The notes beneath the pieces are model-generated. The model worked only from the letters and a program-made list of their open reading frames with translations. It did no database searches and was not told the origin of the DNA. A stretch of DNA of 64,000 nt from positions 1 to 64,000 of the forward strand of contig DASXEJ010000026.1 in assembly GCA_036490175.1 (NCBI GenBank). Reading direction: 5' to 3'. Origin of the DNA: Pirellulales bacterium. Lineage in GTDB: Bacteria > Planctomycetota > Planctomycetia > Pirellulales > JACPPG01. A program made the translations under genes and the position numbers. This document shows, piece by piece, positions 49,918 through 53,584 of this stretch. Numbering within the stretch: the first letter of the stretch is position 1; the number at the start of each line of letters is the position of its first letter.

Positions 49918-50439
49918 ATGACTGTAGCCAAACGCTGCCAGGCGATCGAACTGATTCTCGTCGATGTCGATGGTGTGCTGACCGACGGCAGCATCATCTT
50001 CAATAACGAGGGAATCGAGATCAAGCAGTTCCACATTCGCGATGGCCTGGGCATACGCCTGTGGCAGAAGGCCGGGGGACGCTTCGGCATCATCACGGGA
50101 CGCAATTCACACATCGTGAATCTGCGCGCGATGGAATTAGGAATTAGCATTGTGCGGCAAGGAAGCGAAGTGAAGATGACCGCCGTGCGTGAGATCCTGG
50201 CCGAATTGAACCTGACCGCCGAGCAGCTGTGCTACATGGGGGACGATCTGCCCGATCTGGCCACGCTGCGATTCGCCGGATTGGGTGTGGCGGTGGCGGA
50301 CGCTTGCGAGGAAGTACGGCAGGCTGCCGGCTTTGTGACGGCGGCCGCCGGCGGACGTGGCGCAGTGCGGGAAACGATCGAAATGATTCTCAAGGCCCAG
50401 CGGCGCTGGGACGAGCTGATCCAGTCATATGCCTCGTAG
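49918..50439 (+). CDS. kdsC: Kdo-8-phosphate phosphatase (KdsC)
   Basis: A 173-residue HAD phosphatase without a cap domain that removes the phosphate from 3-deoxy-D-manno-octulosonate 8-phosphate. The catalytic Asp16 and Asp18 are in LVDVDGVLTDG; IITGRNS and the metal-binding YMGDDLPDL complete the HAD motifs. The length fits tetrameric KdsC. It follows kdsD and overlaps the next gene by 11 bases. Confidence 0.93.
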   Translation: MTVAKRCQAIELILVDVDGVLTDGSIIFNNEGIEIKQFHIRDGLGIRLWQKAGGRFGIITGRNSHIVNLRAMELGISIVRQGSEVKMTAVREILAELNLTAEQLCYMGDDLPDLATLRFAGLGVAVADACEEVRQAAGFVTAAAGGRGAVRETIEMILKAQRRWDELIQSYAS

Positions 50440-53400
50440 CACGCCGGCAACGCAGGAGACGTCGAAGGGCGAGGAATCGCCCGCCGACCCGCTGCGCGAC
50501 CTGCAGGTCGAGCATACCGGGCTTCCCTGGAAGCGAATGATCGGCAGCTTCGTTCTGGTCTTGGGCGTGTACTGGACCTATGCGCTGGCGGTCGTGCCTT
50601 TTATCGAGCCGACGATCGTGCCGCACGCCGACTTCGGCGATAGCGCGCCGGGCGCCGTATCGGGCGAGAACGTCGTCAAGTTGCAGCATCAGGCACTGGC
50701 ACCGTGGTTTTCGCCGGGCGACTGGGAACTGACCTCGCCCAAGGTGTTCGAGTCGCCACGCGGCAAGCTCCTGGTGCGCACCTATGAGACGCTGCCCGAC
50801 GGACGCCTGCAAATCTGTCCCTGCACGATCATATTTCTGGCCGAGGGAGAAGCGGCCAGCCAAGAGGAGCGCAATCGGCGGGCCGTCATCCTGCAAGCGC
50901 CCGAGGGGGCGATCTTGCGGTTTGACACGCCGGTCGATCTAAAACAGGGAAAGATCGGCAAGCTTGTCGGCGGCACGATGATGGGGCCAATCAAAATTCG
51001 CAGCGATCAGCGTTTGCCCGGCCCGCAAGACGACTTGCTGATCACGACGCGCGACGCCGAGTTGATCGGCGATCGCATTGTGACCTCGCATCCCGTCGAC
51101 TTTCGCATGGGGCCGAACCAGGGGAATGGTCGCGACATGGAAATTCACCTGGCGCCCTCGACGACTTCCTCGCCTGGCTCGCCGGCGCCTGGCTTTGGCG
51201 GTGTGAACTCGCTGACGCTCAAGTACGACGTCCGCATGCGACTTTACCCGGGGCAGGCCGATATGTTTCCCAATCCGTCGGCTCCGCCAGCCGCCGCGGC
51301 CGCGCAAAGGCCCGCGGAAGATCCCCGCGCAGCACACGACAATCCGCCGGTCGACATCACCTGCGACGGTGCGTTTCAGTTCGACGTCACGCGCCACGCC
51401 GCTACGTTTCGCAAGCACGTCGACGTCATGCGTGCGAATCTTGAGGGACCGAGCGATCAAATGACGTGCGAGCTGCTATCGGTGTTTTTCGAGCCGGCCG
51501 GTAGCACGCCGGCCGCCACTCCCGGCGCCACGGCGCCCGTGGGCGGAACGTCGAAACTTGAGCCCAGCCGCATCGAAGCCGAAGGCGAGCCGGTCGTGAT
51601 TCGCTCCCCCTCGCGCGGTGTGCAGGCCCGCGGCACGCGCTTGGAGTACGACCTCAAGAAAAACGCCGGTGGCCTGCAAGGGCCCGGCTGGCTGAACGCG
51701 GTGCGCCCCGGCGATGCCCGCGCGCAGCCCGTCGAAGCAACGTGGCGCGACAGGATGAAATTCGGTCCCTTGGAAGGCGTACAATGTGCTGAACTAGAGG
51801 GGGACGCGCATGTGGAATCGAGGGGCGTAGGCCTTCTGAACGCGCAAACGATTCAGTTGTTCCTGGTCGAAGACCCCACGCCGCCGGCCAATCCCACGGA
51901 TCGCCGCCGCCTGGTCCCCGATCGTTTACAGGCGTATAAGCAGGTGCACTTTGATTCGCCCACGCTGTCGGGGGACGTTTCCCATTTGCAAGTGTGGATC
52001 AAGCGTCCTCCCCCCATGACACCCGCCGCGCAATTGGCGGCGCAGTCAGCGACGGCGCCGCCCGGTGCGCCGGCAGCCGGGCCCCCCTCGCCCTTCGGTG
52101 CCCCCGCCGGCGCCGGCCCGCAGACGGCGCCGCAACGACATCTCCACGTCGCCGGCAAGCTTTTGCAAGTCGAAGCGCTGATGGGCGAGAAGACGACCGA
52201 CGTCACGCGCATTCATATCGAACGCGACGTACGGCTGCGAGAAACGCAGTCAGCCGAGCCTGGCGCGCGGCCGATGACGGTGAAAGGGGACCAGCTCGAC
52301 GTCGATCAGCCGCTACCGAATCAAGCCGTGGTGCACGTGCTGGGAAAGCCGGCCCGCATCGAGGCCCGCGAGATGATGATCGAAGGTGCGGCGATCCATC
52401 TCGATCGCGCGCGGAATTACGCCTGGGTCGATGGTCAGGGCCTGATGACGGTTCTGATGCCTGCCGACCCAAAGATCCAGCCTCCGCCCCCCGCACGGCC
52501 GCTGAGGATCGAGTGGAAGGGGCGGATGGATTTCGACGGCCGCGATGCGACATTTTTCGATAGCGTCGTCACGCGTATGGAGCAGCAGAAAATAACCTCT
52601 GAGGGCGTCGCCACATTCGAGCAGCAGCGGCTGACAAGTGATTGGTTGCAAGCGGTGTTCGAGCCGCGTGTGCTGTTTGATCAAATGGATCCTCGCGCGC
52701 GGCCGCAAATCAGCCATGTGTTGTGCCGTGGAAACGTGTTTCTGGAACAACGCACGACCGCCGGCGAAAAACCTCTGTCTGTCGAGCGGCTTACCGCGGC
52801 GGATCTGCGTGCCGAGCCCGCCAGCGGCAATTTGCTCGCCAACGGCCCCGGTTGGGTACGCCGCGTATGGCTCGACACCGGCAACGGCATACGCGCGCCG
52901 GGAACGTCGGCCGCGGCCAAGCCGGCGGCGTCGCGCCCCCCAGGCAATCAGCTCGCCTATCTGGGCGTTTATTTTCAAGGCCAGCTGCTCGGCAATCAGA
53001 CACGCCAGACCATGGATTTTCGTGAGCGCGTGCGGACCGTCTACGGTCCGGTACCAGATTGGGACACGATTCTCGAGCCGGACGATCCGGACAAACTGGG
53101 CGACGGTGCCATCTTACTGACGAGTGATCGCTTGCAGGTCGAGCGCATGGCGCCCGAGCCAGGACACGAGCAGCCGTTCGAGTTGATTGCGACAGGGAGC
53201 GCCAAGATCGACGGGCGCGCAAATTTTGCACCCGGCGGTACGACGCCACAGGATCCGACTCGGCCACCGTCGAAGGGGCAGATGTTCTCCGCCAGCGCCG
53301 CGCGGGTCTCGTACGCGGCAACCAAGGACCTGCTGGTGATGGAAGGGGATGGCCGTAGCGATGCCCACCTGGCCCGACAGGTCCGCATCGGCGCGCCGTA

Positions 53401-53584
53401 CGACGAACAGACGGCTGGCAAGTTCTTGTTTTGGCCGTCGCTCAATAAGCTGCTGGTGCAAGATGCGCAGCAACTGAACATCCAAACCCTGGATAGCGGC
53501 ACTCCGAACCGACGCCCACCACCGCCGTCAGCGCGTGGCAACGGCAACCGGGCCGAGGCGCCGGTTACCAGCCCACGGCGGTAA
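50429..53584 (+). CDS. Giant membrane-anchored LptC/LptA-like protein
   Basis: This 1051-residue protein is a candidate lipopolysaccharide-transport bridge. One N-terminal membrane segment at about 36-56 (IGSFVLVLGVYWTYALAVVP) anchors it, as in LptC. The rest is periplasmic. Several stretches follow the LptA/OstA pattern of short strands with D-x-L or A-x-L and added G: 310-352 (CDGAFQFDVTRHAATFRKHV, then SVFFE), 382-420 (IEAEGEPVVIRSPSRGVQAR), 590-640 and 955-985 (SYAATKDLLVMEGDGR). Pro/Ala-rich linkers separate them. It starts 11 bases before the kdsC stop, in the order kdsD-kdsC-lptC-lptA known from proteobacteria. LptA is about 185 residues and LptC about 190. No lptB follows. The fold is my inference from pattern and context. 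Confidence 0.7.
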   Translation: MPRSTPATQETSKGEESPADPLRDLQVEHTGLPWKRMIGSFVLVLGVYWTYALAVVPFIEPTIVPHADFGDSAPGAVSGENVVKLQHQALAPWFSPGDWELTSPKVFESPRGKLLVRTYETLPDGRLQICPCTIIFLAEGEAASQEERNRRAVILQAPEGAILRFDTPVDLKQGKIGKLVGGTMMGPIKIRSDQRLPGPQDDLLITTRDAELIGDRIVTSHPVDFRMGPNQGNGRDMEIHLAPSTTSSPGSPAPGFGGVNSLTLKYDVRMRLYPGQADMFPNPSAPPAAAAAQRPAEDPRAAHDNPPVDITCDGAFQFDVTRHAATFRKHVDVMRANLEGPSDQMTCELLSVFFEPAGSTPAATPGATAPVGGTSKLEPSRIEAEGEPVVIRSPSRGVQARGTRLEYDLKKNAGGLQGPGWLNAVRPGDARAQPVEATWRDRMKFGPLEGVQCAELEGDAHVESRGVGLLNAQTIQLFLVEDPTPPANPTDRRRLVPDRLQAYKQVHFDSPTLSGDVSHLQVWIKRPPPMTPAAQLAAQSATAPPGAPAAGPPSPFGAPAGAGPQTAPQRHLHVAGKLLQVEALMGEKTTDVTRIHIERDVRLRETQSAEPGARPMTVKGDQLDVDQPLPNQAVVHVLGKPARIEAREMMIEGAAIHLDRARNYAWVDGQGLMTVLMPADPKIQPPPPARPLRIEWKGRMDFDGRDATFFDSVVTRMEQQKITSEGVATFEQQRLTSDWLQAVFEPRVLFDQMDPRARPQISHVLCRGNVFLEQRTTAGEKPLSVERLTAADLRAEPASGNLLANGPGWVRRVWLDTGNGIRAPGTSAAAKPAASRPPGNQLAYLGVYFQGQLLGNQTRQTMDFRERVRTVYGPVPDWDTILEPDDPDKLGDGAILLTSDRLQVERMAPEPGHEQPFELIATGSAKIDGRANFAPGGTTPQDPTRPPSKGQMFSASAARVSYAATKDLLVMEGDGRSDAHLARQVRIGAPYDEQTAGKFLFWPSLNKLLVQDAQQLNIQTLDSGTPNRRPPPPSARGNGNRAEAPVTSPRR

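Follow-up and report, generated by a model that had tools for sequence, protein, structure and literature searches.

In E. coli the genes of lipopolysaccharide (LPS) transport follow those of Kdo synthesis in the order kdsD-kdsC-lptC-lptA-lptB. In the window analysed here (the whole stretch of 64,000 nucleotides, positions 1 to 64,000 of the forward strand of contig DASXEJ010000026.1, Pirellulales bacterium GCA_036490175.1), kdsD and kdsC are followed by one very large gene, which occupies the same operon position as lptC-lptA. The question is whether its product, P0001, does the work of both proteins, as the preliminary description had proposed. We consider that P0001 is the periplasmic bridge of the LPS transport (Lpt) machine in the form of one polypeptide, with a probability of about 0.85. 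The features on which this reading is based are presented in Table 1.

Table 1. Features of the kdsD-kdsC-bridge locus (positions in the window) and of two Lpt partner genes elsewhere in the genome (contig:positions).
Feature	Position	Strand	Evidence
kdsD/kpsF-type arabinose-5-phosphate isomerase, 342 aa	48607..49635	+	TIGR00393, 265 bits (cut-off 203.7); order conserved upstream of the bridge gene
kdsC, Kdo-8-phosphate phosphatase, 173 aa	49918..50439	+	TIGR01670, 162 bits (cut-off 107); order conserved
Fused LptC-LptA(n) bridge protein P0001, 1051 aa	50429..53584	+	Conservation, HMMs, repeats, AlphaFold2, fold matches
Single N-terminal transmembrane anchor, residues 34-54	50528..50590	+	AlphaFold2 helix; hydropathy maximum at residue 41
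LptC-like domain, residues ~102-280	50732..51268	+	Fragment 30-305 folded alone, best matches LptC
First LptA-like block, residues 304-525, 14 strands	51338..52003	+	VIA matches; LptA sequences found by the family profile at E 5e-4
Second LptA-like block, residues 571-816, 14 strands	52139..52876	+	Internal profile repeats and model strands only
C-terminal LptA-like domain, residues 841-1018	52949..53482	+	LptA 2r1a_H match; sub-cut-off PF03968 at 944-976
Candidate LptD, 1194-aa ORF	L084:4390-7974	-	Sub-cut-off LptD_N match
Second LptF/G gene, in two pieces at contig ends	L087:2-493 and L088:6819-7553	-	

The open reading frame starts with an ATG and the 3' end of kdsC runs 11 bases into it, as the preliminary description had read the locus; both upstream genes score above the cut-offs of their models. 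The genes rpoB, rpoC, fusA, secY and rpoA are found at 16299-44618 of the window, and the operon therefore comes after the ribosomal/RNA polymerase region. Of the 148 Pirellulales genomes, 146 carry relatives of P0001 (E <= 1e-5), usually with an open frame of ~1000-1300 aa, so P0001 is no chance open reading frame. The nearest relatives (64-66% identity) have the identical start site and also keep the kdsC overlap. The order kdsD-kdsC-bridge was seen in 39 out of 40 Pirellulales neighbourhoods examined, the exception (L069) having < 1.5 kb of upstream sequence. A search of public loci with the single P0001 sequence returned no relatives and an alignment of the sub-family was required; with it, relatives were found in Pirellulales and in metagenome-assembled genomes of other Planctomycetes.

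Concerning the sequence models, the preliminary description had expected PF03968 and PF06835 to match several segments. P0001 itself passes neither cut-off; most members of its family match PF03968, and relatives in other Planctomycetota families pass the LptC and LptA cut-offs on one chain. P0001 scores 16.7 bits with PF03968, under the cut-off of 20.4 (E 0.0087, residues 944-976), and 11 bits with the LptC model TIGR04409 (cut-off 38); PF06835 gives no match, and a search of the PDB with the single sequence gave none either. Among the 41 family members (P0001 and 40 orthologues), PF03968 is matched by 34 (E <= 0.1, best 9.1e-10), the LptA equivalog TIGR03002 by 31 (best E ~1e-10) and TIGR04409 by 10. 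When the family profile was run against all PDB sequences only LptA chains were listed (best E 5.4e-4), and the profile of the C-terminal domain alone reached LptA only at E 0.5. Single-sequence hhalign comparison with the family profile gave a probability of 40% for E. coli LptA, at the C-terminal end, and 2.7% for E. coli LptC. Comparison of the profile with itself reveals internal repeats: 386-525 matches 639-780 (94% probability), and 276-415 matches both 835-968 (93%) and 687-802 (86%). The region between the two ends consists of repeats akin to the C-terminal LptA-like portion.

The AlphaFold2 model, built on 57 sequences (mean pLDDT 79, pTM 0.64), contains one helix followed by ~48 beta strands in series, interrupted by low-confidence Pro/Ala-rich stretches near residues 277-302, 546-565 and 821-837. 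The single LptC-type anchor and the beta blocks split by Pro/Ala linkers, which had been read from the sequence, thus reappear in the model; hydropathy over windows of 19 residues peaks at 2.1 and stays at or below 0.89 past residue 70. Foldseek and VIA-align searches both place LptD_N, LptA and LptC at the top, with an identity to LptA and LptC of 15-17% in the best structural alignments. Residues 30-305 folded alone are most similar to LptC (6mit_C: Z 14.9, 136 aa, 2.7 Å; 4b54_B: Z 14.8, 122/125 aa, 2.1 Å), with LptA second (12.4). In the first LptA-like block, residues 304-447 match LptA 7qs6 (Z 7.0) and residues 379-525 match LptC 9dor_C (Z 8.0), both by VIA. The C-terminal domain matches LptA 2r1a_H with Z 11.3, at 1.5 Å over 122/131 aa. 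Based on the fold matches of the two terminal regions, LptC lies at the N end and LptA at the C end, the sequence in which they follow each other in the bridge, and the beta domains in series that a structural check had been expected to give are there in the model. The hydrophobic alternation expected of a lipid groove was not significant along the strands of P0001 (combined z 1.2).

The diverged Pirellulales protein is tied to recognised LptC and LptA by linking forms in other Planctomycetota. In one family of the same class (f21, probably Planctomycetales) the gene after kdsD encodes a bridge of 988-1086 aa. Further Planctomycetota families have LptC-LptA fusions after kdsC, with lengths of 343, ~560-725 and ~1000-1100 aa; over all kdsC-linked forms the longest class spans ~1000-1200 aa. 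A 660-aa fusion beside kdsD-kdsC (L202) matches PF06835 at residues 46-192 (64.8 bits, cut-off 21), and in the same chain it passes TIGR04409 with 72.8 bits (cut-off 38) as well as TIGR03002 with 80.9 bits (cut-off 71.7); further fusions of other Planctomycetota families agree with this pattern, and some of the 660-aa forms also match PF13100. Across 195 Planctomycetota genomes there are 39 LptC matches, 38 of which lie in frames of 408-1751 aa. Since the 660-aa form passes both cut-offs and nearly all LptC matches are found in long frames, we conclude that the naturally fused LptC-LptA(n) bridge is typical of Planctomycetota, beyond one genome. The remaining match is a stand-alone LptC-sized protein of ~174 aa in a 178-aa frame, located after kdsC (G168, L271:6510-7031, minus strand), with an N-terminus that resembles a lipoprotein signal (LFSGC). 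Genome G177 has a minimal 343-aa LptC-LptA fusion after kdsC (L199:5933-6964, plus strand) and, on another contig, a separate LptA-like open reading frame of ~200 aa (207-aa frame; L270:6722-7312, minus strand); no other genome showed such a small stand-alone LptA-like protein, and the pair may represent an intermediate on the way to the fusion.

The genome of the window (7.58 Mb, 95.8% complete) also contains the partners that such a bridge would have. LptB is present (319.7 bits, cut-off 240), although it is not adjacent to the bridge gene as lptB is to lptA in E. coli; the gene (L085:6633-7454, minus strand) adjoins two unusual signal-peptidase-like open reading frames of 594 and 554 aa, recognised by eye. 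There is one full LptF/G gene in addition to the split one, and WaaA and LpxB are found as well. The candidate LptD has no match among solved structures. PF04453 (the LptD barrel) gave no match in this genome, which is not evidence of absence, given that the control matched only E. coli and Caulobacter. Looking for separate subunits, no stand-alone LptC was found with PF06835 and no stand-alone LptA with PF03968 above cut-off, as the fused reading had anticipated. Two sub-cut-off PF03968 matches are located in the candidate LptD and in an open frame of 8787 aa; the latter looks like a chance match. Pfam absence is weak evidence because Pfam also misses the LptC part of P0001, and the family profiles are better suited: the bridge family profile found no second copy in this genome, and the profile of the C-terminal LptA-like domain found no other match even at E <= 10. 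A separate LptA could be missed because of the incompleteness of the genome or because it is too divergent to detect.

We propose that the N-terminal helix would anchor P0001 in the inner membrane, and that the LptC-like domain would dock on the LptB2FG transporter, whose genes are present, and take Kdo-lipid A/LPS from it. The three further LptA-like blocks (~38 strands, about two to three LptA lengths) would extend the slide toward the outer membrane, where the C-terminal LptA-type domain may dock on the LptA-like domain of LptD and pass the lipid to it. LPS would thus be the substrate, and the single chain would reach LptD and cover the gap without further subunits. It is also possible, at rather less than even odds, that the protein is a fused LptC-LptA but an incomplete bridge, so that several copies or an unrecognised LptA-like protein would still be needed to reach LptD. 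With 48 strands at ~4.8 Å in two sheets, the beta part is estimated (not measured on the model) at only ~11-12 nm, approximately LptC plus two LptA, and G177 pairs its short fusion with a separate LptA-like protein; the searches of the window genome with Pfam and the C-terminal profile argue against such a helper, and the best LptA match of P0001 is its C-terminal domain, where docking on LptD is expected.

The nature of the cargo was considered separately. A bridge of the LptA/LptC fold could carry another lipid or polysaccharide, given that a shared fold proves no function and that P0001 has little sequence identity to either LptA or LptC; we regard this as unlikely, because the gene is linked to kdsD-kdsC (Kdo synthesis) across the order and in other classes, and because WaaA, LpxB, LptB and LptF/G are encoded in the same genome. 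That P0001 is a large unrelated beta-protein (e.g. TamB/AsmA-type or porin-like) which merely resembles LptA is very improbable, since its weak matches to OprD-family porins and OspA (Z 6-7) are clearly surpassed by LptA, LptC and LptD_N at the top of both fold searches, and the HMMs of LptA and LptC recognise family members and relatives, in some cases above cut-off.

Returning to the single-chain LptC-LptA(n) bridge, we found no description of it in the open-access literature searched. The preliminary description had suggested that it would, if real, be a new architecture for LPS transport; the architecture is phylum-wide and not a property of this genome alone. A gene survey of 2022 reported that the Lpt system of Planctomycetes is largely reduced (PMC8871954), and Speth et al., who argued for a planctomycete outer membrane, reported LptD, with LptC absent from the text (PMC3422733). 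A fused, diverged bridge gene beside kdsC fills this gap. As a wider proposal, which we hold tentatively and at slightly under even odds, each LPS transporter of the Planctomycetota would be served by one covalent LptC-LptA(n) chain whose length is fixed, where other bacteria use a row of LptA subunits that can be adjusted, and the length of the bridge (343, ~660 or ~1000-1200 aa) would track the periplasm width of the lineage. The family offers a natural test of whether bridge length matches periplasm width. For the Lpt machine it is not settled how many LptA subunits make up a bridge, and these proteins are a natural single-chain version of it.

Compared with known systems, P0001 shares with LptC of E. 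coli/Enterobacter (PF06835, TIGR04409; 3my2, 6mit) the single anchor, the beta-jellyroll and the gene position directly after kdsC, and LptC is the best structural match of residues 102-280; however, LptC is a bitopic protein of ~190 aa in its own right, whereas in P0001 it corresponds only to the first part of 1051 aa. LptA/LptH (PF03968, TIGR03002; 2r1a, 4uu4) superposes on the C-terminal domain, and its equivalog model is passed above cut-off by relatives of P0001. LptA is a separate soluble periplasmic protein of ~185 aa which joins head to tail, while the LptA-like blocks of P0001 are covalently joined in tandem behind LptC, within an anchored chain. The N-terminal domain of LptD (PF03968; 4q35, 5iv9) has the same fold and tops the Foldseek list, but LptD also has an outer-membrane barrel, which P0001 lacks; the separate 1194-aa open reading frame is the candidate for that role. 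Large OstA-like proteins occur in Bacteroidota, and OstA-like proteins (PF13100) contain LptA-type repeats, like the P0001 family.
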